In this document: in pieces, positions 1-56,095 of the stretch
How the letters are laid out: every line of letters begins with the position of its first letter
Numbering within the stretch: the first letter of the stretch is position 1
Assembly (NCBI GenBank): GCA_029834535.1
Contig: JAQMWT010000544.1
Coordinates: forward strand, 185,520 to 249,519
DNA from: Chrysophaeum taylorii
Taxonomy: Eukaryota > Sar > Pelagophyceae > Pelagomonadales > Pelagomonadaceae
Direction of reading: 5' to 3'
Length of the DNA: 64,000 nt
Notes under the pieces: model-generated
Seen by the model: only the letters and a program-made list of their open reading frames with translations
Told to the model about the DNA's origin: nothing
Database searches by the model: none
Program-made: the position numbers and the translations under genes

Positions 1-1
1 T

Positions 2-841
2 GCTTGTCGCCCCGATTTCTCCCGAGCTATAGGACGCTGTTCCCGAGGTATGCACTCTACCACCTATGTGCATATCCAAATGCTCGGTCACCTCCTAAGG
101 TACCTCAGTAAACCTGCCAATCGAGCTCTTCGTCTCTGGTTGCACCCTAAAGGGAATGCTATCGAAAACCATATACGCGTTATTTCACCTAATAGAGTTG
201 ACCTGTCAACAATAATCGACTACCGGGACAAAGACGTCGCTGCTGGCAAGTTCGACCCTCTAGTTGCTATGGTGGATGCCGACAACGCTCCTTCACTGGA
301 ACAGGAAGACAGAAAGTCCACTACTGGCTTTGTTTTCTACCTGTTCAACTGCCTCATCGCCTGGAAAAGCAAACTACAACCCATAGTTTCGTGTTCTACC
401 CACGAAGCTGAGCTTATCGCTCTCAGCATCTGCGCTGACGAAGCAGTCTGGCTCCGTAAGTTACTTCTTGAGCTCTCGTTTGTTGTTAATCCGACATTCT
501 ATATGAATACGCAAACTGACCCTCCTTCCGATTTTGACGCTGATGACAATCCTATTGCCGAGGATATGCGCTTCATCAGAAGCCTACCCCTTTTGTCTGA
601 TAATGCTGCAGCTGTGCACACTTCCAACAATCCTGACGGTTCTTCTCGTAGCAAAGCCCTTTCCACTCGATGGTTCAAAATTCGCGAATATGTCGCACTA
701 CAGAAAATTCGTGTTCACCATGTCCCTGGCAAGTTAAACGTAGCTGATGGCTTCACAAAGCCTCTTGCAGCCGACTTTACCACGCTCCGTTCTCTTCTAG
801 GTATGCACCATGCTACTGACTCAGACCAAGAAGATACCTAA
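2..841 (+). CDS. Ty1/copia retrotransposon pol, 3' end (RNase H), partial
   Basis: The frame is open from base 2, so the gene begins outside the window. The first residues match the pol segment that links reverse transcriptase to RNase H in Ty1/copia elements (MHS..Y.H then LLRYLSKP). The RNase H part is clear: DRKSTTGFVFYL, a WKSK motif, the STHEAELIAL active-site stretch, ADEAVWLRKLL, then LSDNAAAV, and the usual end HHVPGKLNVADGFTKPL. RNase H degrades the RNA strand of the RNA/DNA hybrid during reverse transcription. No frameshift or internal stop is visible, so this is the best preserved pol end in the window. A second open frame starts 75 bases after its stop. Confidence 0.88.
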   Translation, partial: ACRPDFSRAIGRCSRGMHSTTYVHIQMLGHLLRYLSKPANRALRLWLHPKGNAIENHIRVISPNRVDLSTIIDYRDKDVAAGKFDPLVAMVDADNAPSLEQEDRKSTTGFVFYLFNCLIAWKSKLQPIVSCSTHEAELIALSICADEAVWLRKLLLELSFVVNPTFYMNTQTDPPSDFDADDNPIAEDMRFIRSLPLLSDNAAAVHTSNNPDGSSRSKALSTRWFKIREYVALQKIRVHHVPGKLNVADGFTKPLAADFTTLRSLLGMHHATDSDQEDT

Positions 842-915
842 TCTCTAGCCCTGACCGCAATGTCATTAAACTAGCCCTCATCTTTTGCCACTACTTTTTG
901 TGTACGTCGTCGCCA

Positions 916-2937
916 ATGCATCACTGGCGCAGCAACCACCCACGTGGAGTCACGCCCGCCCGACGCGAGCTACCTCGCACACTTACGCCCGCTGAGTCGT
1001 CTACCAACACTCCTCCGAACCGTAGGAAACCAAATCGCGACGACATTACTCGTCTGCTCTCATCCTCTGCTGCTGCGATCCGGCCTGGCTCCAACCCCCT
1101 AACCACGTTTGCCGATGCTGTCGTTTTAAATGTTTCTCAGCAGGAACATGGATCATCTATCACGTCAGACCAAAAATTCAAAACTCCTTTCACCGGTCTC
1201 TTATCATCTTTTCTACATACTGACCTATTCAAGGCACTTGATTCCATCTACGCATCTCGCGATCACTTGGACTACCAGATCTTCATGGAACTGTCGAACT
1301 TTTGCTCAGTCAGGACACCAGTCGTCTTCCCTCTGCCTTCTGCACCTTCAATATATGCTACACTTTGCTATCGAGGTCTCAAGAAGGAGACCCAGCAATC
1401 CTCATTTCACTGCCTTCAATGCTTCGACAACGACGGCAAACCGCTCCAAATCTGTGTCTCCAATTATAAAAGGAAGATAGACGAGCTACCTGCTGCTGTC
1501 CTAGAACATCTCGCCAGCGAATCACATATTCGAAATGCCTTCATACCTGTCTCTATCCCGACTATGGGTATGTGTTGTGCGTGTAGAAACTCTGACCACA
1601 TTGCCCTCTCGTTTCTTTTCCTCGCGTGGAACGCACGTATAATTGTTTTTCCTTGTGAGTCATCACCCGCTGGTCACCTCCGTGCCACCATCCTCCGTGT
1701 TTTCTTTCTCCCATTGGACCTGCAAGCACTGCTCCAAGAACTAATCAAGGAACACGCACTACCCGCTGATATTATTATTATTATGCCTTCCCCAGTCACA
1801 ACAGATTCACAAAATGCGGTGGCCTACCCCTTCAACCTCAAGTTTATTTCTCGGCTTCATCTGGAACACCTGTCGCTTATTGTGACAATTGTTCGCACAC
1901 ATGTAAAGAAACAGTCGATTATTAAGGCAAGCGCTTATCAGCCTTTGGTTCACGCTCTCTGCCGCTCTCTCGTACATCACATTACTGAGTACAACACACT
2001 GGCACATGATGAACGACCACCATCTATCTTTGACGAAATATCTTCACCAACTACCTTTTGCGACACCGATCGCAAAGATTTTGCTAAGCTCTTATCATCA
2101 CGTTACCCCGATCTCTATAACGAACTTACCGCTGCGACCGAAAAGTCAGTAAACTACCCGCCAGTGGCACCTACTGCCCCGGCACCAACACAACCTAGTA
2201 CTACTACCTCTCCAGATCTTGCGGCATTATCCTCTCAGGTGACTCAACTTACCCAACAGGTTACAATTCTCCAAACTTCATATGGACAAATGGACCAACG
2301 TCTCCACGCCTTAACTACTGAAAATGCTGCCTTACGGTCTGATTTAACTACTGCTGTCACAGACCTCCGTGACATGGAAAATCGGCTATTCCCAGCCACT
2401 ACTAATACCAACGTTCTGCTGGTAACCCTATTCAAGGTGTGTGAGTTACTCAACAGACTCACTCTTGCTTTGAATGACCAACACGACTTAGTGTTTGGCT
2501 TGCCTGATGATACTCTCCTTCAACTCCGAAACGAGTTAATCCGCACGACACATCATCCTGCATTACAACAAACTGAGTCCCTCCAAGATCCTTTCACCAT
2601 CCCACAGTTTCTCGAGAATAACCTCGATGAATTGCAATTGAGCAGCCTTATCCCTCAAATCTTGCATCACCTGCTCGCCCTTACCCACAGGATCATACCT
2701 CAACATTGCTCTGCAAAGAGCATCAATCATCCTTCTGAACCTGAAAATGATGACGTTCCCGCCATATGTGAAGTCCAAGAGGACCAAGCAACCTCCTCAC
2801 CGTTATCATTGACATCTGCCTCATCACGTTCACTTCCCTCTTTTAAAGTCCCCTTGCCAAAAGCATTCAGAGTGTTATCACCAAGTCCAAGCCCTAACAT
2901 CTGTCTGCTGATGAACCTGTTGTGCCACTTTATGTGA
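916..2937 (+). CDS. Large extra ORF downstream of copia pol, unknown function
   Basis: This long intact frame (first ATG at 916, about 673 residues; the open frame reaches back to 898) lies directly 3' of the RNase H stop, where some copia lineages carry an extra ORF. I do not recognise the family. Visible parts: a basic, Pro/Arg-rich start; a middle region with Cys pairs (HCLQC, CCAC) that could bind metal; a Pro/Thr-rich hinge near residue 430; then a heptad-like coiled coil (LSSQVTQLTQQ onward, roughly residues 440-500) and an acidic C-terminus. There is no convincing signal peptide or membrane helix, so an envelope-like role is not supported. An RNA-binding, structural or gag-like protein is possible. 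Its base composition and codon use resemble the neighbouring pol, unlike the GC-rich host genes. Confidence 0.55.
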   Translation: MHHWRSNHPRGVTPARRELPRTLTPAESSTNTPPNRRKPNRDDITRLLSSSAAAIRPGSNPLTTFADAVVLNVSQQEHGSSITSDQKFKTPFTGLLSSFLHTDLFKALDSIYASRDHLDYQIFMELSNFCSVRTPVVFPLPSAPSIYATLCYRGLKKETQQSSFHCLQCFDNDGKPLQICVSNYKRKIDELPAAVLEHLASESHIRNAFIPVSIPTMGMCCACRNSDHIALSFLFLAWNARIIVFPCESSPAGHLRATILRVFFLPLDLQALLQELIKEHALPADIIIIMPSPVTTDSQNAVAYPFNLKFISRLHLEHLSLIVTIVRTHVKKQSIIKASAYQPLVHALCRSLVHHITEYNTLAHDERPPSIFDEISSPTTFCDTDRKDFAKLLSSRYPDLYNELTAATEKSVNYPPVAPTAPAPTQPSTTTSPDLAALSSQVTQLTQQVTILQTSYGQMDQRLHALTTENAALRSDLTTAVTDLRDMENRLFPATTNTNVLLVTLFKVCELLNRLTLALNDQHDLVFGLPDDTLLQLRNELIRTTHHPALQQTESLQDPFTIPQFLENNLDELQLSSLIPQILHHLLALTHRIIPQHCSAKSINHPSEPENDDVPAICEVQEDQATSSPLSLTSASSRSLPSFKVPLPKAFRVLSPSPSPNICLLMNLLCHFM

Positions 2938-3314
2938 CCTCTGAAGTGCACTTCTTGTTTATCCTGATCTCGTCCTCCACCACATTTCTCTAGAGATGTC
3001 ATGTTCCTCAACCACAAGACATCTCGAGGGGGTGGAGAGAAATCTGGTAACTCCTACGCTTATTCCGTCCGTTGAGAGCGCGATCTCTTCCTTACCCTTT
3101 TCCTTCCTTTCTACACAGTCAATTAGTCCTCTGATCTGTGCTCACGCTCATCATCATGGTCTAGCGCGTCCCACAGGTACGTAGTAATTACATGTTACCC
3201 TGATGTGCTGCTATGTATCGTCTGTCGTGCGAAGAGGCTAGGGGGACCAATGCCTGGGTTCCCTGAAACCTACCTTTTTGCCAGACTCACGCGGTGAGAT
3301 GGTCTCTCAGTGAT
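2938..3314. other. Non-coding junction between two copia elements
   Basis: About 380 bases without a plausible gene. It lies between the end of the extra ORF of the first element and the RNase H end of the inverted element, so it should hold the 3' untranslated/LTR parts of one or both. I could not pair it with a second copy in the window; in particular it does not contain the 197-bp segment found at 5600 and 10722. Confidence 0.4.
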
Positions 3315-5570
3315 CTAACCACTGCCTAGCGCAATACTCTGCAGGATGTAGAGAGTGTTCTGGACGGAGTTGTACGGTGGAAGAGTAGCAGAAAGAGGAA
3401 CTTGATCAGATGGTGGTGAAGAAGATGTAGAGTGAACACCGTAGGCGTTCTTGAACTTGTGGAATAAATTGCAGGGGAGAAGCTTTGAAAAATGATCGGC
3501 AACCTGGTAGTGAGTAGGGCACCAGAGGGGACGAATGACCGAGTTGGCCTGATAGTCACGAATGCGAAATTCTCGTAGATTGATATGACGAGAGGGAGCA
3601 CTGACTTTAGGGTGATTAGGGACTTGTAAGGCGCTAGCGTTGTCAATACGTAGGGGAATAGCGTGAGCTTGATCACGCGAAAATAGATAAGGGTGAGAGG
3701 AGAAGGTTTTATGACACCATTGGCATTCATCAGCGGCTGCACTAGCGGCGATGAGTTCGGCTTCCATGGTGCTTTTGGCAGTAAGAGTCTGGCGTTTGCT
3801 AGACCAGAATACGAGATTGCCATACGAAAATACATGCACCAGAATGAAGATCATAGGCGAGGGTCAGAACGGTCAGCGAAACTGGCATCAGTAAAACAAA
3901 TAATGGGCGAACGAAGATGATGCAGTTCTGGATATGTGCCGATCAGATGCTGAATAAAGGGCGTAATGGAGGGGCTGTCGGATGAATAGTCTAGAGAATC
4001 ATTCGGTGTACCCTTCAAATAGCGAAGTAAAACATACAAATGTAGAAGATGGGTCTGCTCAGGGTTGTGCATGCCTTTGCGGCATTTGTTGCACGGAGAG
4101 GTGATGTCAGGACAACATGTGACAGACAAGTAAATACTAGTGCCACAGCAATGAGGAAAATGCTTGCTTAAAATTTCTAAGGTAGGAGCCAAGTTGAAAA
4201 GAAGCTTAGCAGATGGTTTCTGGACGAGAATGTTAGAGTAGGGGACGTCGGTAGTACGGAGGTTGATTCTATGCTCGGCGAGCATCTTATTTATCTTCGC
4301 GGCTACATTCATAGTAAGGTGACCAGCGGAGACATTGTACTGTACATCGATACCAGGGAAGGATCGAATGTTATCATGCCATGTACCTTCGCCATATTCC
4401 TTCTCCAAAGCGGTGCGAAGAGACGTGATTTTGGCGGTGTTGGTACCAGTGATCGGGAGAGGTCTGAAGTTAGTTAGTTAGTTAGGTACCAGTGATCAAG
4501 AGATCAGCGACAGAGACAGATAGGAAAACCCATCTGTTGATAGATCGATCCCAACTGATATAGAGGCAAGTGTCGACTTGTGAGCGTTCGAACTCATGTT
4601 TTCGAAGAAACGAGTCGAGCTTAATGTTCCACAACAAAGCTGACTGTTTGAGACCATAGAGAGCCTTGACGAGTCGGAGAGATAGCTTGGATTCTGGATG
4701 GTTCTTCTGTATCTGTTGGACAGGGTTTTGCGAGACACGTGTTCCTCGAGGAAAGTCGATCCATACTGGGCGATCGAGTGCCGATTGGATGAATGCATGA
4801 GGAATGTCCGCGTGCGCGACCGGGAGCTTGTGCTTCACAGCGATGGCGAGCAGTAGCCGGTTGGTGGCAAGCATTGCGGTTGGGGAGGAGGTGGCATAAA
4901 AGTCAATGCCGACACGTGCCAAGAAACCTCGGGCAACTAGACGAGCTTTATAGCGGTCTGGGGTGCCGTCAGCAAAATACTTGATCTTCAGCACGAGTTT
5001 CGTCGAGATAGACGAGCGGTCTGGCGGTAAAGGTTCAAGCTTAAAGACGCCGTTGGAGCACAAACCTTCAATTTCCATGCGAATCGAAGCAATATGCTTA
5101 AGCTTATCTTCTTCGCTGAATCCTTAGAGTGCGACAATCTTCTCAGGCTCATAGACAATGTCTTCAGCAGTCACGAGTTGTGACGCGACATGGTCGATGT
5201 GCTGCAGGTTATAGTTCATGACTTCTTGGAGAATGTCTTGGTTCGGATCACTTTGACTTAGAAAGAGGTGCCCGAGTTCGCCAGAATCATGCATGAAGGC
5301 ATGTCTGTGACGAGAAGCTAGGTGGTAGTGCTGATGCGCTGAGATGTCCCACAAGAGAGATGAACTCATACAACAGAATTCTTGGTTCCATTGACGCGCA
5401 TAGTACTCTGCCGGTGACAGTTCGTCATGGCATACATAGTTCTCGAGAACAGAATCGTCGTTGTCCAGGTGGTCGACCAAGACAGACGAGTGGTACGGCT
5501 TCCTTGGGAAGTCAACGTACAAGAGGTCTGCGTCGGTTTCTCTCTGCAGATCCAGTGCAGTGCCGCCCAT
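3315..5570 (-). pseudogene. Ty1/copia pol remnant: linker, reverse transcriptase, RNase H
   Basis: Read on the minus strand, the order is linker (MGGTALDLQ onward), reverse transcriptase (5078-4482: STKLVLKIKY, KARLVARGF, HADIPHAFIQ, LVKALYGLKQS, then VADLLITGT where YVDDLLI is expected), the RT-RNase H connector (4408-3851) and RNase H (TLTAKSTMEAELIAAS, RHINLREFRI, VADHFSKLL). Breaks: an in-frame stop near 5124 between linker and RT; loss of one of the two catalytic Asp in the YxDD box; a 43-nt insertion at 4455-4497 that shifts the frame; and another shift near 3850. gag and integrase are missing. The linker is about 90% similar to that at 10496-10680, so this copy and the methyltransferase-bearing element are one family. 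Confidence 0.85.
4442..4497 (+). mobile_element. 30-nt dead-on-arrival non-LTR insertion with 13-bp target-site duplication
   Basis: The 13-mer GGTACCAGTGATC occurs at 4442-4454 and again at 4485-4497. Between them lie 30 bases: GGGAGAGGTCTGAAG followed by (TTAG)n. Removing one 13-mer and the 30 bases (43 nt) brings the RT frame exactly into the frame of the downstream RT-RNase H connector, so the insertion is later than the element. The same 15-mer and tetranucleotide tail occur, inverted, at about 23681-23712 at the end of a longer sequence. Target-site duplication, extreme 5' truncation and a tandem-repeat tail are the marks of target-primed reverse transcription. Confidence 0.75.
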
Positions 5571-5599
5571 GATACCATAGTCTTGGGTGGTGTAGAGAT

Positions 5600-5796
5600 A
5601 GAAAATTTGGTTTAGGGTTAGTACCCCCCCTATCCTAGGGTTAGCTCTCTGACTTTTAGCACCTTTTAGTTCAAGAAAACGCTGTGTTATTCACACCGTG
5701 CTGTCCTCGTTATTAGAGACAGATACGAGGGCAGACTACCACTGCTCTCACTCTGCTGAAGGGTAACACAGTTGAAATTACTGTTCTCTAGGTATT
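5600..5796 (-). repeat. Probable copia LTR segment, inverted partner of 10722-10918
   Basis: The reverse complement of this stretch aligns almost end to end with 10722-10918: shared blocks include AGAGAACAGTAATTTCAA, GTGAGAGCAGTGGTAGTCTG, AACACAGCGTTTTCTT and CTAGGATAGGGGGGTACTAA. I judge 85-90% identity by eye. On the minus strand it directly precedes the linker of the inverted pol remnant, so it sits where a 5' LTR would be after an internal deletion. Exact LTR ends (TG..CA) are not clear. Confidence 0.6.
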
Positions 5797-5807
5797 GGGC
5801 ACCAGTC

Positions 5808-5825
5808 CCGGTATCAGCAGAGTAC
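5808..5825 (+). other. Primer-binding-site-like sequence
   Basis: CGGTATCAGCAGAG lies about 55 bases before the first ORF of the element. Copia elements commonly prime from initiator tRNA-Met with a site beginning TGGTATCAGAGC; this is close but has a changed first base and a two-base insertion. There is no LTR in matching orientation just upstream, so the call is tentative. Confidence 0.3.
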
Positions 5826-5879
5826 CAGGATTTCCAGTCGAGTTTCGCTCTCTGACGTTCCTGACCAAACAAAATAAAG

Positions 5880-6429
5880 ATGCCAACCAATCAAGAACTT
5901 CAAAGAGAGTTGGCCACTCAGAAGACCCAACATGACCAAGCCATGAAAGATCAAGAAGATCGCTTAAGGGCGGAATTCAACGCTCAATTCACCGCGTTCG
6001 CCGCCCAGATGCAGCAACACCAAAACACCCCACCACCTGCCGTCGCCGCTGCGTCAGCTCCTCCCACGGCTCCACAAGACCCCAAGACCAAGCCAAACAT
6101 CTTCACTGACCCCCCTAGCGCCGTCCTTAAGTCAATGGACTCCGCTCAAGACACCCCCAAAAAATACTTCTCTCCGAGGCTGATTCCGACGCCGCCGAGT
6201 TTCTTCAGGTGCTATCATCCGATCCTCAGGATGATCCACCCGATGAGGGCGCAGCCGACGACGCAGATAACCAAGGCCACCTCGGTTTTTATGATATGAT
6301 CACGGACAGCTAGGCCTCTACGACGATAACATCCCCGAAATAGACGATGAAGACGACGCCGCCGAAGACTACGCACAACGTCACAGCGACTACATGCGTG
6401 CTCTACACCAGAGTCAGCTTTTTCGATGA
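5880..6429 (+). pseudogene. First ORF of the element (gag position), frameshifted
   Basis: It starts at the ATG at 5880 with a charged coiled coil (QRELATQKTQHDQ onward, residues 5-45), then a Pro/Ala-rich stretch. After about residue 95 the annotated frame turns non-coding in character, while a second frame continues with an acidic, Asp-rich sequence (SEADSDAAEFLQV onward) to about 6303, and a third to a stop at 6429 (EDYAQRHSDYMRAL). At least two single-base shifts are therefore likely. I see no capsid motif and no CCHC zinc knuckle, so gag is inferred from position only. Confidence 0.5.
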
Positions 6430-6681
6430 TGGTTGCCGGTTATAGCGACCTCTAAACTGAAAGCTCTAAACGTTCAAGCAACAGACCCACCGCAGCCATA
6501 CGAACCATACTTGTATGAACTTCTGACCACCTCCACTTAAGATCCTCATGATTACAAAAAACACTTCTAGGCACAACCGCAGTAGTTCTCTGCCAATCGC
6601 CAAACTAATGGTCTCTTGTCCCTGCCATCCCATCCAAAGCAAACATTCCGCGCCGTGCTTAGTTTCCACACCAGAACGAAA

Positions 6682-8903
6682 ATGTCACTCAAGGATGAGC
6701 TCGCACACATAAAGCAGAACGTAGCAAAGACGCGCTCGCAATTCCATCTCCTCGATTTCGCAAAATTAGAGCATCATTCTATATTCTTGACGGACTTAAT
6801 CAGCCTTCCGCGTACTGTCGTCCAATATGCATTCACTGGCTCAGCGGACCTCTTTGCGCAAGCACAACCCCCTCCGCTACACACCGCAATCATTGCAGGT
6901 GGACTCCACCAAGAAGGCTTTGACTCTTTTTGCAAACGCTTCGACCAACGCATGATTGTCGTGGCCGCCTGTGAAATCAACCCTATTATACGCGCCCGCG
7001 CGCAGCAACTTTTCCCGCACGCTCTGCATTATGCGGACCTAAGGAAGCTCACTGCCTCTTTGCAAACCGGCAAAATACGACTACCTCAACCTGAACTGGC
7101 TGTCTTCACCTTGCCTTGTCAACATCTGAGCGTAATGAAAGACTATGACGGCTATGCCACTCCGGTGACCGCCGACCTTTTCGTCAAAGAACAAATTCGC
7201 TTTGTTCGTTGCACGCTCCTGACATACGCCATTGTCGAGAATGTACCCCCAACCCCCCGAACTCACCACGAGTACGCTCAGCTCGCCAAATGCTATCAGC
7301 GCATGGGTTACTTCAGACACTCCGGTGTCTACAATGCCTCCGCTTTTGGTGACGTCATAAGCAAGACCCGCTACCTCGCTGTCTTTGCCCGACACCCGCT
7401 CACCGACTACAACCTCGAGAAAACCGCTTCCTCCTGGTTAATATCTCCTCCGAGCATGGTTCCTCTACTGGACCCAAGTCACACTATCCCCGACGATCTC
7501 TCGATAGCCAACCCCGCTCTTCGTGGCACCGTGACGCGCTCCACCTTGGACTATTACCAGAACAAGGCCATTTTCTCATACGCACCCGCCAACGCCTCTA
7601 AACTCTCGATTTCCGAGAATGCACGCATCTGCCAAATGCTTGCACGCTTGAAGAAGCCCTTCACGGATCTAGGACTGGACGCCGACGGCACCCCCTATGC
7701 CTCGATGACCAACATCTCACATCTCTTGGTATTTACATTGCTGCACAACCATTTGTCGCAACACCCTACTCTCGCCGCCTGGAGCACACTCCGCTGCTTT
7801 CACGCCCCAGAGTCCCAATGTGCTTACCATTTAGAGGGAGCCATCACCGGCGCTGCCGCTACCGCCGTCGCATGTGGCTACTTCCCGCGCGCATCCCTCA
7901 CCTTACATTCACGCCCCCCCCCCGGATAATGGACTGTTCCCACCAACCCGCTGTCTTCTCCCCAACGCACACCTTTTCCCTGGATGTCCCCAATGGCACC
8001 GCCTTTCTGGTCGTCGCCTACACCATCTCCTTGGCCGCCGCTCACAGCTGCTCGCGCCCCTCCACGTGGGTCCACTACATGAATCGCTCGCATCCCGGCT
8101 TCGCCGCGATCGATTCACGAGGGCGAATTACTCTCGATGACCCCACGGGACTCATAATGTCCGAAGCACGTCCCACTTACGCGGACTTCGTCGGCCACAT
8201 CGGCGACACACTCCAGAAATCCACAAAGTGCTACTCGGTCACTGGCTCGTACCCAACCAACACGAGCTACTCCAACGCATTACTGCTGATCTCCCCCGAC
8301 CACATCCGATACGCGACTCTCAACGAAATCGCAAAGTTTGGACAACACTCGGACCATGAACTGCTCTGCTTGTTCCAACAGCATCCGCCGTACTTCGCGT
8401 TTAAGGCACTGGCCAACGCTGTCCCGCTCAACATGCTGCAGGCAAAGTACAGCGCTGTCCTCGCACTTCACGAATCGTATCACCACGTGAACCTTCACAT
8501 CGAATGGGCAACCATACGCAATGGCATTCCCAGCCCCGGAGACATCAATCAGGTTGCAGAATTCTTCCTGAACATTTCCAGCCGTCTCTTAGAAGAGGAG
8601 GACCTCAACCTCACCTCCCTCTTCAATGGTGTTGCAGATGCTCACCATGCTGCGATCCGCAAGCCAAACAAATCGAAAAACCTCGAGACGCTGCTTGCCG
8701 AGGCCACAGTTGCTAAAGTCCGAGTCGATAAGCGACCCACTCCTCCTTGGACTTCGACTGCCGCTCTGCCCCCCTTGCACAAGGCCGGCACCATTAAGCA
8801 CGCGAAAAGAGTGCTCTTGGTCACTCGCTGGCACCGCATACACCACCAGCAACCCGAGATTCTTCGCCGCACAATTGCCGCCAACGAAACGAATCTCCGC
8901 TGA
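6682..8903 (+). pseudogene. C5-cytosine DNA methyltransferase inside the retrotransposon (two frames)
   Basis: The order of motifs is that of C5-cytosine methyltransferases. First frame (ATG 6682 to stop 7929): a weakened motif I (IIAGGLHQEGF), motif II-III (ACEINPIIRARAQ, then a D at ALHYADLRKL), motif IV with the catalytic cysteine (LPCQHLS), motif VI (YAIVENVPP) and a motif VIII-like NASAFGDVISKTRYLAVF. Second frame (about 7924 to 8903): motif IX (RYATLNEIAKFGQHSDHEL) and motif X (KALANAVPLNML). The frames meet at a run of ten C at 7914-7923, so a single-base length change there would join them. The enzyme would transfer a methyl group from S-adenosylmethionine to cytosine C5. It lies between gag position and integrase. 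Activity is uncertain because motif I departs from FxGxG. Confidence 0.8.
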
Positions 8904-10707
8904 GGTGATGATCGGTATTTGCAAGACTGCAGCGAATGCAAGCGCTTCAATCGCATGTCAGCTTCCGTCACAAGAACACTTCCTGGTCACAGGATGAACT
9001 AGCCTATGCTCCTGGCCAACATCTCCACATGGATGTCTCATACCCGAGCATCAGCAAATGCTATGGTGGCTTTCGTTACATCATGCATTTTGTGTGTTTT
9101 ATTTCGCCACACAAATGGGTATACTTCCTGAGGAAACTAGACGCGCAGGACGTTCTGGCCGGCATCCTCTACGCGGTCAATGTGATTAAGGTCGAATTCG
9201 ATGTAAGAGTGAAAATCATCTCATCTGGTGCTTTTTCCACATTTCGCTCCGAAGCTTTCCACCCGCTCAAGGTGCAACTCGGTATCCAGTTTAAAATCAT
9301 GCCACCTACACCAGCGGAACTTCGCGGAAAACATCATCAAAGAAAATACAAGAGGCACTGTCGTTCGCCTCCTTAACCTGCGCAGCGTCCGCATCGAAGG
9401 AAAGCCGATTGGCGCCGAGTATTACCAGCCGTTTGGTCTACTGCATAAGATCCAAGCAGACAATCAGTGCTCTCATGGACTGCCCTCACGCACTAACATG
9501 ACCTGCACCGTCCCCCGGCGCATCATGTCACCCACGGCACCACTCTTGAAACTTCTCCCCTTTGGCGAACCTGTCATGTTCGTCGATCCTCGAAGTCATA
9601 AACTAGAACCCTCCAAGCGTCTCCGCCTCTTATTTCCACAGAAACAACATATCTCCCGAAACTCCCCGGTACGGACCGATTTATTCGTGATGTTCACAGA
9701 TCTATCCTGCTCGTACAACATCAAAGGCGATATGGAAAAATCGTCACCTCGAACGACTTCCACGTCGATGCAGACATGCCAGTCAACCGCAACAAGGAGA
9801 TCGAACGGATCAAAGCATACGCACAGATCCCTCCCAACAGAGGTGCGGCAAGAGGACCCGCTCCCAGCTATAAGCGAGCAGCCAAAGCCGGACATAACAC
9901 GGGAATCGCAGAACGAGGGCGAGACTCATGATAACAACCTCGACGACGAACCCGATGATGACGACGAGCATGAAGAACCAGTTCAAACCTCTGCCACTGA
10001 TCCCAGTCCCGTCAGCGACGAGACACCTGAACAAAGATTTTTCGTTCCTCAACCGGCCACCCCCGACGGACGGTAGCATTCCGATGCCCAAGCGAAAGGA
10101 TCGCCTTGTTCTCGATGATTCTGGTTTTACTCCAGTCCTCGCGCATCGCAACCAGAGTGACAAACTCAAGGCAGATCTCAAGGACGAGCGCGGATTCCGC
10201 ATTCCCAAAGATCAACTATACATCCTGAAACGTGTCGACGATGGAAAACTTTTCACCAGACGCATTATCGCTTCAGAGTATGGTCGCAACAGGAAATACC
10301 AGCAGGAGCAATCCACGGCTCGTGCCACAGCCAACATGTCCAGCACATTGATGTTCCTCATCAGTGTCAGCGCTCTGCACCAGGGCCGTGCCGTCAGCGT
10401 CGTATCTGATCTTAACATTAGATGGGACGCTAAGCCGCCAGATCCTGTCCCGATAGGATGCCTCCTCGCAAATACCACCCAAGACTATGGTATCATGGGC
10501 GGCACTGCACTGGATCTGCAGAGAGAAACCGACACAGAACTATTGTACGTTGACTTCCCAAGGAAGCCGTACCACTCGTCTGTCTTGGTCGACCACCTGG
10601 ACAACGACAATTCTGTTCTCGAGAACTATGTATGCCATGACGAACTGTCACCGGCAGAGAACTATGCGCGTCCGTCCGTCAATGGAACCAAGACTTCTGT
10701 TGTATGA
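8904..10707 (+). pseudogene. Copia integrase and post-integrase linker, frameshifted
   Basis: A CxxC of the integrase zinc finger (LQDCSECKRFNRM) is seen just after the methyltransferase stop. The core follows at about 8990-9376: HMDVSYPS holds the first Asp of the DDE triad, then the usual GGFRYIMHFV and WVYFLRKLD. The second Asp (RSDNG in relatives) is lost; the sequence reads IISSGAFSTF. The Glu is recognisable only after a frame change (NFAENIIKEN, about 9320). From there the reading continues in a second frame to 10076 and in a third to 10707, with an acidic stretch (DDEPDDDDEHEE) and the family linker MGGTALDLQ. It then stops 15 bases before the LTR-like segment without reaching RT. Confidence 0.75.
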
Positions 10708-10721
10708 GTTCCTCTCTCTTA

Positions 10722-10918
10722 GAGAACAGTAATTTCAAAAACCGTGTTACCTTTTCTTCAGAAGAGTGAGAGCAGTGGTAGTCTGCCCTCGTATCTGTCT
10801 CGGACAGCACGGTGTGAATAACACAGCGTTTTCTTAAAATAAAAGGTGCTCAAAGTAAGAGAGCTATTCCTAGGATAGGGGGGTACTAACTCTAAATCAA
10901 TTTTTGCATCTCTGTCTC
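10722..10918 (+). repeat. Probable copia LTR segment, inverted partner of 5600-5796
   Basis: See the partner at 5600-5796 for the shared blocks. Here the segment closes the methyltransferase-bearing element at its 3' side, in the same orientation as that element's genes, as a 3' LTR would. Sequence after 10918 is of a different, more GC-rich kind. Confidence 0.6.
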
Positions 10919-13715: not shown

Positions 13716-16700
13716 ATGTGGTGGTGGTGTTGGTGGTTCCCACTCCTCGCGGCACGCCGCCTCCAGGCCCCGGTCGACACCTACGACCTCACCTCGGGCT
13801 TCTGCCGCAGCGCCTGGGAGGAGTCGGGGGGCCTCGCCGACGACGCGATGCAATGCTGGACCCAGTGCAACGACCTCTACGGCGAAGACACGATCCTCGC
13901 CGCCACCTACTTTGCCGACGACGCCACCTGCAATTGCCAGGACTCGTGCGACTGTCTCGAGACCACCTCGTCGACCGGCTCCCTCCTGGTCGATTCTGGA
14001 ACACAACTTCCGCCAGACTGCGCCACCGACGCGCCGACGACTCTAGGCCCGCGACCGCCCACGACGCCCAACCCGTGAGGAGATTACCACACCTTGTGCT
14101 GTATGTACCACAGGGTGCCGGCGCTGCAACCGCCGACGACGCCGGAGCCGGCTACGCCCGACCCGTGAGGACTTGTTCTTTCTTCTCGAGCGCCGCTTTT
14201 TTGACGATAACTAACCGCAGGGTACCTCAGCCGACGACGTGAGGAGCTGCTGCCTTCCCTTTGATGACACAGCAGTCATGGTTCCACAGGGTGGCGGAAC
14301 CGACGACGTTGGGACCTCGACCGCCTCCAACAGCGCGCCCGACTACTACCGAGCCGTGAGGAGCTGCGCTTCGACGATACGACGATCTCGCAGGGTGCCG
14401 CGGCCGCCGACGACGCCGGAGCCGGCAACTCCCGAACCGTGAGGAGATGAATGCGCTTTGACGGGTGACGACCACGCAGGGTGCCGCAGCCGACTACGAC
14501 CGAACCGTGAGGAGCTGCGCTTTGATCATCAACGCGTCATACGGTTCCGCAAGGGTGGCGCGACCGACGTCGGGGCCGACGTCGGGGCCGCTACCGCGGC
14601 CGACCACGACCGAACCGTGAGGAGCTGCGCTTTGATGACAGAGTGCTCGACAACCACGACAACGCAGGGCCCCGCAGCCGACTCGCCTACAGCGACCGCC
14701 GACGACGCCGGAGCCATCTACTCTCGAGCCGTAAGAAGTTTGTGCGTTTATGACGACGGCTCGACGAACGCCGCAGGGTACCGCAGCCGACGACTTCCGA
14801 GCCGTGAGGAGATGAAGGTTTACTTGCGGAGGACCACCGACCCCCCATAGGGTGGCAAAACCGACTCCAGGGCCGGTACCGCCGCCGACAGCGAACCCGA
14901 CTGCTTTAGGGCCGCCGCCGTGAGCGCTTGGATCTCGCGACTGCTCGACGATCGCGCAGGGTGGCGCAACCGACTCTTGGTCTGCGACCGCCAACGACGC
15001 CGGAGCCGACTACTCCGTGAAGAGATGCGCATCGATGGCACACATCACTGCTCGACCACAGGGTGGCACAACCGACTCTGGGGCCGCGATCGTCGCCGAC
15101 GTGAGAACAACGTACGGTCTCGAGATTTGACGTTTACGTTCAGCGCTCCGCCGACGATTCTGCAACAAAGCACTTTCGCGCCAACGACGCGAGTAAAGAG
15201 CTTGTGCTTACGCTTAGTTTTTCGCGCCGCAGGCGACCCCTCTTGCCGCCCGAACCGTAGACTTCGCCGTGTCCATTCGCGGTCACGATTCCCCTCGCAG
15301 GTCGGCCCGACCCACGACCGTAGATTCGCCACCAACGACGCCGCGTCCATCGTCGGGACGTCCCACGCTATTGCCAACGACACCCCTATCTCTTCCACCT
15401 ACGTCGATGCCGGTGCCATCGCCGACGTCACCCCCATCTCCGCCGCCTTCGGTGTCGCCCTCGTCGGGACCCACCGAGATCCCCGCGCGAATCCCCACCG
15501 CTTTCCCCTCGGTGCAGCCCTCGTCGGCACCCACCGAAAGCCCCACGCTGGCGCCAACGCTGATGCCGTCGTCGTCGGGACCAACCGAAGACCCCACAGC
15601 TAGCCCCACGCTGGCGCCAACGCTGACGCCGTCGTCGTCGGGACCCACCGAAAACCCCACAGCTAGCCCCACGCTGGCGCCAACGCTGACGCCGTCGTCG
15701 TCGGGACCCACCGAAAACCCCACAGCTAGCCCCACGCTGACGCCAACGCTGTCGCCGTCGTCGTCTGGACCAACCGAAGACCCCTCGGCTTGCCCCACGC
15801 TGACGCCATCGCTGACGCCGTCGTCGTCGGGACCCACCGAAGACCCCACGCTGCGGCCGACGCGTGGCCCCACGAGGTTGTTGTTGTTCGCGGCCTCCTG
15901 CGCGACGATGACGAAGCCCGCAGGGACCCGGGGTCGCCACAACCAACGCCAGCACCCACCACATCATTGCCAACTTCACGACCTACGTCGGAGCCAACGC
16001 CCTGTCCTACGAGGTGCGGCCGATAATGACGCTGGAAAAAAACGACCACGCAGCGAGCCTACGGCAGCGGCACTCCCGACGCGAGCGCCCACCACGCCCG
16101 AGCCGAGCGCCAGGTTGTTGTTGTTGTTGTTACCGTTTGTGTGTCGACGCGCACATCTTTATTAGGCCGACGACGACGACGACGACTCGAGGGCCAACGA
16201 CGACGACGCAGCCGAATCTATTTTTGTCGAGGTGCTTCGTTATGATTGTTGCGAACAACGAAGACGCTGCGCGCGCGCAGTTCTCCGACGACGAACCGTC
16301 CGTCGTTCGAGGAGGCGACGCCGACCCATCTCCCCAGCGTATTGCCTACGAGCGAACAACCGACGGAGTCCCCTCGCGCGCCGCCATCTGCCGAGCCGAC
16401 GAGCTGCCCGTCGAGGACGCCCAGCGACGAGCTCGCGCCGACGTCGTCGTCGGACGGAACGGTGTCGATCTCGTCGTCGATCGTGCTTTTCGTCTCGCAG
16501 GACAACAACAACGACAACGACGACGACGACGACGAGGTGGTGTTCGAGGCGCTGCGAGAGGCTTTGGTGGCATCGATCGACCTGCTGACGAACGTGTCGC
16601 AGGTTCGAGACGTGCGTCGCGAGGAGGAGAGACGGCGACGACGGTTGCTGCAAGAGAGCATCGTCGTCGCGTTCGTCGCCCGAGTCGAAGGGACGGTAGA

Positions 16701-53217: not shown

Positions 53218-54689
53218 TCGGTTTTGTTTTCGTGCTTCCTATGTGGTTGGATCGCTCATCTTCGGGATCCTGGACAGACGCTTCTTTGCTGTGTGATTTG
53301 TGGTTCTCCTTCGCGCACTCTCGCCTTTTCGCCGTTTTCCTGACCTTCAAAATCCGTTTTTGCTCTCGCAGTGAATTCCGTGCTCAGCACCCGCGACGCT
53401 ATCTGCAATGTTCTTACGTGCCACTGCGACGCTATCTGCAACGTTCTTACGTGCCACAACTGTTTTGCCACTGTCGCCAACTTCTACCGCAGTCTATTCG
53501 AGCATGACGAGTCAAGCTCGCCGCTTGCTCCTCCAACGTTGGCCCATATGGCAACTTCGTTCTTGCGAATGCGAAAACGGGCCACTTTCTTATCTGCCCC
53601 AGCAGGCTGGCATACAGCAGCCTGGTCTACCCGTGTTCGTTCCTTACACCGCTGGCGCGTCCGAAGTCTTCCATTTTCGCGTACAGGACGCGGTCGTGCC
53701 CATGGCAACTTGCTCGCACCACAACAACCAAACACCCACGTTCGCATCAAACCTGTTTACGCCTGTTTTTGCTTCTGTCGACTCCGACCATCGTCATAAC
53801 CTGGTCACCATGCACGATGCACCCTATCTGCCCAAAGGCCACGTTCTCATCAGACGTCTGGTACACTGCCATCATATATACCAGCCTGTGTTTCCGCTAT
53901 CTTTGCCCCGCTGCGATTCTCAGTGGCCACAATCGTCTAACGCACGTCATCCCAGGCACTTTTGTCGCTATTGTTCTTCAGACCTCGATTTTCCTGACAG
54001 TTTCGCATATCAGATTTTTCCTGCAATGTCAACCACCGGAACTTCAACGTTGTTCCGACTTTCTCGAATCACGCGCTCTCGTCTACTGTTACCCCATTGT
54101 CACCTGTTCCTGCTGTTGCCCGATTGTCACCTGTTCTTCCGCAGTTGCCCCCTTGTCCCCTGTGTTTGATGAGAATGCGCCGGTTTCACTGGGACTGATC
54201 ACCCCATCACGTGAACCGACCATTCTACGAGCTCATGAACTCCGACGAACCAAAGAGAGAAAACAACAAAAAGTGCACAACAAAGCCGAGCCAACCAGAG
54301 CCGACAAAACAACAAGCATGCAAAACAAAAAGCATGCAAAACAAAGTCGAGCCAAACGGAGCCGACCGCGCAAAGTCGACAAAAAGCGCACATTATTCAG
54401 AAACAAATGGAGAACCAACTCAAACCCACAATACTGGCGTTTTACCACGCACTGTCGATTCTGTGTCATCTTGTCATTCCCTTCGATTCTGTGTCATCTT
54501 GTCATTCCCTGTACGTTAATTATTCTAGCTTTCGTTTGTTAGTTCATTATGTCTTCCTTCCCCTCTGTCTCGCCCAGCCCATCCAAATCCTGCACGTCGG
54601 TTACAAGCCCTTGCCAAAGAATATCATTCCCTCGGTCAGCTCGGTTGCTCGGATGTTGTTCGCGTTCCTTCTCCTTTTTCTGGCACCAT

Positions 54690-56095
54690 CTGCCCTTTGA
54701 AGTGGGTCCACCGCACGAAGTATGAATCTGGCCGCTTCAAATCGCACACTGCTCATCTCGTTGTCCGCGGTTACACCCAGGTTCACGGCATTGCTTACCA
54801 CGACACGTACCGTCCTGTATATGTCATCTCTGCTTTCATACAAGCCCCTGTCTGGCGTTGCCGTTCACGACTGGGATTTGCATAAGTTGGATGTCAGCTC
54901 CGCTTTTATCCAAGCTCCCATTGACGAAGACATCTATGTCTGGCCACCCGAAGGTTATGCTCCTCGCCAACCCACCGATGGTTTCAAAATCATTTACACG
55001 CTCCGTCGCTCTTGGTATGGTTGCAAACAAGCTTGTCGTAATTGGTGGCTTTATTTGGCACGCTTTCTCGTCAATGACTGTGGCTTCGTCCGCGGATCTG
55101 GTGACACTTGCAGCTACACGCTCGTGCTTAAGTCTACTGTCGTTCAGCGCCTTGTTCTCGTCGTTGATGATCTTCTTGTGGCGCACCCCGTTCTTGCATT
55201 GGCCATTACCAAGCCTTTTTGCGTTTTTCAAAGCCTTCCCACTTCCGTTGGTCTCCGCCTTACGCGTGCTCGCGCACGTCGCAAGCTCGCTATCTACCAA
55301 TCCCATGCTATCCGTGAAATCCTCACCGAGCATCGCTTCATCAACAGTAAACCAGAATTTACTCCCGCTCCCAATGGTTCTTCCTCTTTCTGCGGCTGCT
55401 TCTCCTGCACCTGGCTCCCCTGCTCACGTCTTCATGGCACGCATCCCTTTTCGTCGTATTCTCCGTTGTGTCTTGTTTCTTCCTGTTATGCCTCGCCCTG
55501 ATATTCACTTGGACCGTCAATCCGTGTGCGCCTTTTACTGACAATCCTGGTAAACCCCACTGGCGCGCCTTATCTCATACCCTCCGTTATCTCCATGGTA
55601 CTCAAGATCTTGCCCTTGTTCTTGGTCGCGCTTCTACCCTTCGTCTCTGTGGTTATTCCGACTCCAGCTGGGCCGACGACCCTGATGACCGCCACTCCAC
55701 TACTGGCGTTTGTTTTCTCCTTGCTGGCTCTATGATAGCCTAATGCTCACGCTCGCAGTACCTCCTCGCCCGCTCCTCTTTTGAAGCTGAATTGCTCGCT
55801 CTTTACGCCGCTACCTTGGCTTCTCCAACTTTTTGATGACTTTGATCTCATCCCTCGTCACACGGTACCAATGTATGTCGATAATAGCACCACCGTCACC
55901 CAAGTCCGTCTCCAATGTCTCACGCGGCGCACCCGCCATATTGATATTCGCTTTTACAGCACCGCCGAATATCATCGCAACCACATCATTGATCTCCAAC
56001 ACAATCCCCGCCTTGACAACCTTCGCGATATCTTCACCCGTCGTACGGAAGCTCCTCCCTTCCTCCGGCTTCGTGCTCGTTACCTCACCTCGTGA
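54690..56095 (+). pseudogene. Ty1/copia reverse transcriptase and RNase H remnant
   Basis: RT begins PLKWVHRTKYESGRFKSHTA and HLVVRGYTQVHGIAYHDTY in one frame, moves near 54830 to a second frame (HDWDLHKLDVSSAFIQAPI, IYVWPPEGY, LRRSWYGCKQ, LVLVVDDLLVAH where YVDDLLI is usual, AIREILTEHRF), and then to others for the connector and RNase H (PHWRALSHTLRYLHGTQD, YSDSSWADDPDDRHSTTG, SSFEAELLALYAATL after a stop at 55743, then MYVDNSTTV and RRTRHIDIRFY). At least four frameshifts or stops make it inactive. Confidence 0.85.

Follow-up and report, generated by a model that had tools for sequence, protein, structure and literature searches.

Does a Ty1/copia retrotransposon of the pelagophyte Chrysophaeum taylorii carry a cytosine-5 (C5) methyltransferase (MTase) as a domain of its own, or did a methyltransferase gene and an unrelated element meet by accident? 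The question was raised by a stretch of 64,000 nucleotides, here termed the window (contig JAQMWT010000544.1, positions 185,520 to 249,519), for which an original prediction had placed the C5 motifs IV, VI, IX and X in order ahead of the integrase (INT) of a copia-type element. Three other genes in the window match the eukaryotic families SMC1, CDC6/ORC-like and Tubby.

Layout of the window copy

The window element extends from 5593 to 10913, from an LTR to an inverted LTR. Its 5' LTR (5593..5791, + strand), which is 85–87% identical to both LTRs of a complete copy on contig C681, is followed by a remnant of the gag ORF (5865..6296, +) recognized by tblastn to other loci. Up to position 6438, gag lacks about 1.6 kb present in the complete copy and the protease (PR) region another 0.43 kb, as seen in jumps of the blastn alignment from 1946 to 3547 and from 3819 to 4249 in C681 coordinates, leaving the protease largely missing (coverage 0.36). 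The N-terminal part of the MTase with motifs I–VIII (6682..7920, +) was delimited by PF00145, PHROG 116/363 and the positions of the motifs, which by motif reading include motif IV (PCQ) with the catalytic cysteine (7105..7131, +), motif VI (ENV) with the catalytic glutamate (7231..7251, +) and a motif VIII-like SKxRY sequence (7357..7392, +). Near 7.91 kb the frame breaks, and the C-terminal part (7917..8900, +), consisting of a large insert, motif IX (8307–8339, +), motif X (LANAVP, 8409–8432, +) and a linker, continues in a different frame. All four predicted motifs were thus located, although IX and X do not share the frame of the other two.

The integrase region comprises an HHCC zinc finger, read by eye and interrupted by a stop, and a core (8829..9376, +) with a match to rve (PF00665, E = 8.5e-4) of 20 bits, under the cut-off of 32.6. 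Its C-terminal part, a linker and the start of the segment preceding the reverse transcriptase (pre-RT), which is then cut off, were assigned by tblastn/blastn to other copies (9377..10717, +). The second LTR (10720..10913, −), with 77–79% identity to the C681 LTRs, is inverted relative to the first (inverted repeats I2 and I3). On the other side of the element, pre-RT, reverse transcriptase (RT) and RNase H (RH) of the same family are found in inverted orientation (3349..5591, −; 86% identity to C681 8325–10535), with an RVT_2 match at 4485–5123 (−; E = 1.4e-33). Part of this half (5353..5591, −) is duplicated in inverse orientation at 10474–10720 (inverted repeats I1, 199 nt, 97%, and I4, 44 nt, 95%). 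The window copy is therefore a dead, rearranged member of its family, which we designate A, with a broken frame and the RT half on the opposite strand. In this damaged state, with half of pol inverted, it does not by itself suffice to establish an element-borne methyltransferase.

Family A as a mobile unit

In the 70.8-Mb genome, two merged position lists contain about 112 MTase loci, 65 of which are followed on the same strand by a family RT, at a distance of 2.6–4.8 kb in 63 cases and of 7.1–7.4 kb in two. The window copy is present in one of these two lists but missing from the other (60 of 828 candidates scored) and from the PF00145 list (123 of 474 scored), which marks the latter two as lower bounds. 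Among the best 20 PF00145 places, retrieved with their flanks, two are host-like genes and 18 carry the MTase region of the window, with INT downstream on the same strand in 14 and RT in 10; the order MTase-INT-RT on one strand is contained within the fetched stretch in 10 of the 18. The number of family loci and the frequency of a downstream RT on the same strand exclude a chance insertion of the MTase into a copia element.

Two copies, those with both ends read, are complete. Both are bounded by LTRs and a perfect 5-bp target duplication, CTCAC/CTCAC in the copy on C96 (9625 bp) and GTATA/GTATA in that on C681 (9439 bp), and both exhibit the architecture LTR-gag-PR-MTase-INT-RT-RH-LTR within 9.4–9.6 kb. 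In one complete copy, an open frame of 1952 residues leads from a protease-like site through MTase, INT and RT. RVT_2 is matched with E = 1.6e-38 in the locus L025, in whose translation a DGGAS-like protease site without a Pfam match was read by eye; a second rve match is, like that of the window, weak and under the cut-off (E = 0.006).

The MTase domain is under purifying selection, with median dN/dS values of 0.156 (motifs I–VIII), 0.179 (VIII–IX) and 0.186 (IX–X) compared to 0.107 for INT, 0.119 for RT and 0.149 for PR; values in frames +1/+2 are 1.1–2.2. Across 14 copies, nucleotide distances of the MTase correlate with those of PR (0.97), INT (0.93) and RT (0.69). The correlation is weak at the protein level (PR 0.62, p = 0.011; RT 0.30, p = 0.11; INT 0.08, p = 0.34), probably because frame-shifted segments were included. 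A host methyltransferase gene hit by an unrelated element, or an assembly chimera, would be compatible with a window copy that, viewed alone, is broken and half inverted, but this scenario, to which we assign a negligible probability, is refuted by the order shared among many loci and by the LTRs and target duplications that enclose the domain in two of them, and it is also at odds with the co-inheritance of the domains. Family A thus consists of Ty1/copia LTR retrotransposons with a C5 MTase domain that have moved as a unit, which bears out both the predicted capture and the expectation that the fused order would recur in the genome.

The methyltransferase domain and its relatives

The profile match proposed as a check of the MTase region was obtained for the window ORF at 6586–7929 (+), which matches PF00145 with E = 3.1e-5 (24 bits, gathering cut-off 22); other copies score 32.1 bits (L025) and 34.0 bits (L020 and L022). 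The same ORF matches DNA methyltransferase families of PHROG (E = 1.2e-9 and 4.3e-7), and two PHROG methyltransferase families match 11 of 11 aligned copies. NCBIfam dcm is found in the window ORF with E = 3.2e-5, yet under its curated cut-off, and gave no match for L025 or L020. A PDB profile search with the query A1 returned two weak matches, the one to a DNMT with E = 0.23, and an AlphaFold model of the window part made without alignment is uninformative (pLDDT 36.5).

Within family A, 24 of 25 rows retain PCQ, the remaining one being frame-shifted; ENV is retained in 21 of 26 and its glutamate in 22 of 26 (two of the other four are frame-shifted), and the motif VIII arginine in all 26. C5 methyltransferases follow the consensus FxGxG in motif I and QxRxR in motif VIII. 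Neither IIAGGLHQEG nor SKxRY, the equivalent sequences of family A, fits this consensus, so cofactor binding could be altered and the protein is best described as a divergent member of the C5 MTase superfamily instead of a canonical enzyme. Motifs VIII and IX are separated by an insert of about 270 residues.

The two host-like genes, L009 and L010, share PF00145 with the element enzyme but score higher (69.6 and 62.1 bits), and no family A retroelement proteins were found near either. In the PF00145 list, the two top places (67.1 and 61.2 bits) look host-like, and the remaining places listed have at most 46.1 bits. L009 is by its motifs presumably DNMT2-like, and hhalign gives it little similarity to the MTase of the element (probability 0.4%, E = 0.17), whereas L010 combines PF00145 with SNF2 and is DNMT5-like. 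Further host DNMT1 or DNMT3 genes may exist, considering introns and the 123 of 474 candidates scored. Protein searches with A1 (E ≤ 0.01), A2 (E ≤ 10) and pol 300–985 of L025 (E ≤ 1), covering 8000, 6091 and 7975 candidates, detected no homologue elsewhere, and scans of viral contigs (A2, A3) and prokaryotic contigs (A2) no relative, which may reflect collections poor in protists.

Two further copia families, B and C (RT identity 42% and 35%), contain divergent homologous domains before INT. One of them occupies at least 150 places, and A, B and C together about 260 among the matches listed. In the rows scanned, neither B nor C has a Pfam or PHROG MTase match of its own, and PCQ and ENV are changed in both; the motif IV cysteine is kept in 10 of 10 rows aligned across the three families. 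Profile comparison relates A to B (E = 8e-9, probability 95.8%) and B to C (E = 1.4e-5, probability 80%), and with the B profile all 11 A rows and all 8 C rows outscore every one of 4200 shuffled sequences, the C row L040 by a narrow margin. In L040, a QSRER-like motif VIII is found downstream of a stop. The direct comparison of A and C is not significant (hhalign probability 0.2%), and neither of their profiles raises the other above shuffles.

As two other copia families carry such domains ahead of INT, the capture looks ancient. Probably a C5 MTase was acquired by pol in the ancestor shared by a deep lineage of copia elements, and it would now be part of much, perhaps most, of the copia complement of this genome, with diverging active sites. 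Independent captures of the domain in A/B and in C appear unlikely: the missing direct relationship between A and C and the absence of matches of family C to Pfam or PHROG MTase models would be expected in this case, but family B bridges the other two and the domain resides in the same place in all of them.

Proposed role and comparison with known elements

We lean towards the view that the C5 MTase, a fixed pol domain of family A, methylates the element's own cDNA before integration. The enzyme, either cut from Gag-Pol or working within it, would act in the virus-like particle, with RNA or primer tRNA as less likely substrates, and the new copy would thereby gain a host-like or protective mark. 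Elements with a C5 MTase-like enzyme of their own may thus place chemical marks on newly made copies. A methylation footprint is not seen in the substitutions of family A, where CpG transitions are not in excess (C, 0.0407 in CpG versus 0.0408 in CHH; G, 0.0341 versus 0.0331). The observed/expected ratio of CpG is about 1.0 in elements versus 1.2–1.4 in flanks, and TpG/CpA is higher in elements, which may be due to base composition or mild old decay.

It is conceivable, if somewhat doubtful, that the fold was kept for another job, such as RNA or cDNA binding, particle assembly or primer capture, with no methylation involved. The deviating motifs I and VIII, the lack of a CpG transition excess and the changed PCQ and ENV motifs of families B and C, where the domain stays in place, all agree with such a role, but the PCQ, ENV and arginine residues retained in family A, and the cysteine common to all three families, would be dispensable in a purely structural use. 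A DNMT2-like activity on RNA instead of cDNA, with the genomic RNA or the primer tRNA as substrate, is improbable. Copia particles contain RNA and tRNA, and we take the GGLHQEG of motif I to resemble GGMHxAL of DNMT2, but the latter is a compact enzyme lacking a counterpart in size to the VIII–IX insert, and the comparison with host L009 is not significant, although both proteins are colinear at motifs IV and VI. For the LINE enzyme, RNA is discussed as a target by the authors of PMC5890265. Methylation of cDNA remains our preferred reading.

Retrotransposons that encode DNMTs have been described in the LINE, DIRS and Gypsy classes (PMC5890265). The original prediction had named dinoflagellates and charophytes as their hosts, and both lineages are correct, but the elements described in that study are of these three classes and not Copia; for Symbiodinium, Copia is stated to have no DNMT domain (de Mendoza et al., 2018, PMC5890265). 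The DIRS-type enzyme of Symbiodinium methylates CG de novo, a precedent for the activity proposed here, while the LINE-type enzyme, an orphan lineage, produced no DNA methylation in yeast, which speaks against it (PMC5890265). In the literature we found no description of copia elements carrying this MTase. One sentence of a 2025 paper, in the text available, places DNMT3 in 'LTR Copia and DIRS' and so names Copia as carrier (PMC12344493), which may be a slip because it cites the 2018 study, whose LTR element is Gypsy; unlike family A, it refers to a DNMT3-type enzyme in streptophytes or dinoflagellates.

Retrotransposons with a silencing-type enzyme of their own have thus been described in two lineages and three element classes, to which copia adds a fourth. 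If the single capture holds, the MTase would be an ancient, unrecognized standard domain of a copia clade and not a recent curiosity, and its apparent persistence across divergent families turns the keeping of a DNA methyltransferase by a parasite into a comparative question. Because one genome harbours a family with an intact active site (A) next to families with altered ones (B, C), their methylation is directly comparable. Among the described systems (PMC5890265), family A resembles KnitGypsy-Dnmt3 of Klebsormidium nitens in being an LTR element whose Pol polyprotein includes a C5 MTase under purifying selection, but that element is Ty3/gypsy with a DNMT3-type enzyme, whereas the present one is Ty1/copia with a divergent C5 MTase. 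With SymbioDIRS-Dnmt3 and SymbioLINE-Dnmt of Symbiodinium it shares the organization as a multi-copy retrotransposon encoding a C5 MTase, while differing from these DIRS and LINE elements in its copia backbone.

Methyltransferase domain and rearrangement of the window copy

The plus-strand open reading frame at 6586-7929 matches PF00145 in profile searches (E 3.1e-5, 24 bits, cut-off 22), which bears out the original prediction of a C5 methyltransferase (MTase). It also matches two PHROG methyltransferase families, as do 11/11 family A copies of the alignment A2 (best E 2.9e-12). The motifs had been predicted to lie in order between gag and integrase (INT). This location holds, with a gag remnant found 5' of the MTase and an INT core 3' of its frame (rve E 8.5e-4, under the cut-off). 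Motifs IV and VI reside in the frame at 6586-7929; past a frame break, motifs IX and X are read in a different frame.

Comparison with the complete family A copy on contig C681 resolves the window copy into RNase H-reverse transcriptase (RT)-pre-RT on the minus strand (3349-5591), an LTR on the plus strand (5593-5791), gag-MTase-INT-pre-RT on the plus strand as far as 10717 and an LTR on the minus strand (10720-10913), with the copia RT detected at 4485-5123 on the minus strand (RVT_2 E 1.4e-33). Inversions can arise when retroelement cDNA integrates into itself, and the location of both internal joints at LTR ends is consistent with such an event. However, a pre-RT stretch of about 240 bp occurs inverted on both sides of the copy, and this duplication, which would not result from a 5-bp stagger, is left unexplained by simple self-integration. 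In position lists, family MTase and RT are found on opposing strands within 6 kb at five loci including the window; besides 3349-10913 these are L041, C490, C489 and C189, and L041, the one inspected closely among these four, is also organized head-to-head. The GC-rich DNA adjoining the element contains a tandem array with 63-bp spacing and a dispersed 52-nt repeat family (14120-15874).

Complete copies and genomic distribution of the fusion

The two complete family A copies on C96 (L025 and L029) and C681 (L026 and L030) are both flanked by perfect 5-bp target duplications and bounded by LTRs of about 200 bp (TAGAGA...TCTCTA), which are 89% and 98% identical within the respective element. The former contains a single open frame of 1952 residues with a protease-like site, MTase, INT and RT. 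The family A element including its MTase is thus a mobile unit. By position, the complete C681 element sits between an RT and an MTase of the more divergent copia family B, as if nested in an element of that family.

PF00145 is matched at no fewer than 57 places in the genome (best 123 of 474 candidates scored). The best 20 were fetched with flanks, and one of the remaining 37, on C143, was read as a short piece. Two of the 20 (L009 and L010) are host-like genes, and the MTase region of the window was found in 18/18 of the others. Within the stretch read, INT follows downstream on the same strand at 14 and RT at 10 of these 18 loci. The whole domain of L025 as query recovered at least 77 pieces (best 60 of 828 candidates scored), and merging these with the matches to the domain of the family B copy L038 gave at least 112 MTase loci. 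Contig duplication may account for some of them, and one or more (C118) belong to family C. A family RT is located 3' on the same strand at 65 or more of the 112. Conversely, an MTase precedes 65 of 117 RTs taken from the matches listed in an RT search; the 52 others likely reflect truncation, rearrangement or an MTase outside the matches listed, although some may truly lack the domain.

Selection, co-inheritance and divergent families

Median dN/dS values over 26 copies in the coding frame, from pairs that are not independent, are as follows: motifs I-VIII, 0.156; VIII-IX insert, 0.179; motifs IX-X, 0.186; linker, 0.264; INT, 0.107; RT, 0.119; and protease (PR), 0.149. An earlier calculation on translated alignments with slightly different bounds gave 0.174, 0.208, 0.188, 0.338, 0.161, 0.158 and 0.173 in the same order. 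In the two non-coding frames, the values for the 26 copies range from 1.1 to 2.2. Nucleotide distances of the MTase in 14 copies correlate with those of PR (0.97), INT (0.93) and RT (0.69; p 0.0005 each, 2000 permutations), with weaker correlations at the protein level (0.62, 0.08 and 0.30). Within family A, PCQ is kept in 24/25 rows (the exception, L033, is frame-shifted), ENV in 21/26, its Glu in 22/26 (two of the four rows without it being frame-shifted) and the motif VIII Arg in 26/26. The conserved insert of about 270 residues between motifs VIII and IX (about 485-756 of L025 pol), for which no Pfam domain was found in L025 and other family A copies (dN/dS 0.18), is perhaps an enlarged target recognition domain.

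Among the matches listed in the RT search (best 150 of 1404 candidates), RT identities extend from 100% to 63% and from 46% downward, with none in between. Three RTs from below this gap were fetched. Two define family B (L038 and L039, RT 42-43% identical), whose domain preceding INT matches that of family A (hhalign E 8e-9) and, with L038 as query, recovers the MTase of the window (E 1.6e-11, 24% identity). The third, L040, defines family C (RT 35%), whose core matches family B (E 1.4e-5) and which by eye has a motif IX/X-like end and also, behind a stop, QSRER; direct profile comparison of A and C gave no significant match. When each profile was used to rank real rows against 4200 shuffles, all A and C rows outranked the best shuffle with the B profile, L040 barely; the A profile recovered both B rows but missed every C row, and the C profile recovered a single B row out of two and missed every A row. 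Motifs IV and VI read PCQ/ENV in A, ECT/EMT in B and PPCT/EMT in C, with the motif IV Cys present in 10/10 and the motif VI Glu in 9/10 aligned rows of the three families. The L040 core is found at 150 or more places, with 66-89% identity excluding itself (best 150 of 869 candidates), and a family C core is located upstream on the same strand at 43 of the best 150 RVT_2 places, in 32 cases at 4.2-4.75 kb. RT/RNase H-like remnants at window 1-871 are probably the end of a family C element with its MTase core at C544:180383-180931, about 5 kb ahead of the window start. Another diverged copia-like RT (54559-55740) is 23-28% identical to families A-C, and family B and C MTase cores as queries gave no match within the window.

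Putative function and relation to known elements

The copia pol products PR, INT and RT are made together, where cDNA is made. An MTase encoded inside pol would thus be made with them and be present at this location, where it would methylate cytosines of the element cDNA ahead of integration. Judged from sequence, such methylation is our favoured reading of the putative enzyme, with an about even chance of being correct. It is weakened by the lack of a transition excess at CpG sites of family A copies (C 0.0407 versus 0.0408 at CHH; G 0.0341 versus 0.0331). The observed/expected CpG ratio is 1.0 in elements versus 1.2-1.4 in flanks and TpG/CpA is somewhat higher, which could reflect composition or mild old decay.

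We found no published account of these MTase-bearing copia elements, with most subscription journals and preprints outside the scope of the search. In the parts of the sources consulted, accessory domains of retrotransposon polyproteins are covered without mention of copia (PMC6338049), DNMT3 is described as missing from most stramenopiles except diatoms (PMC9998398), and 'LTR Copia' is named as a DNMT3 carrier in one sentence citing de Mendoza 2018 (PMC12344493). The carriers of DNMTs described in the consulted part of that study are LINE, DIRS and Gypsy elements, and Symbiodinium Copia is presented there without a DNMT domain (PMC5890265). The methyltransferase described in a Sola1 DNA transposon is a different one, of the N4/N6 type (PMC12477816).
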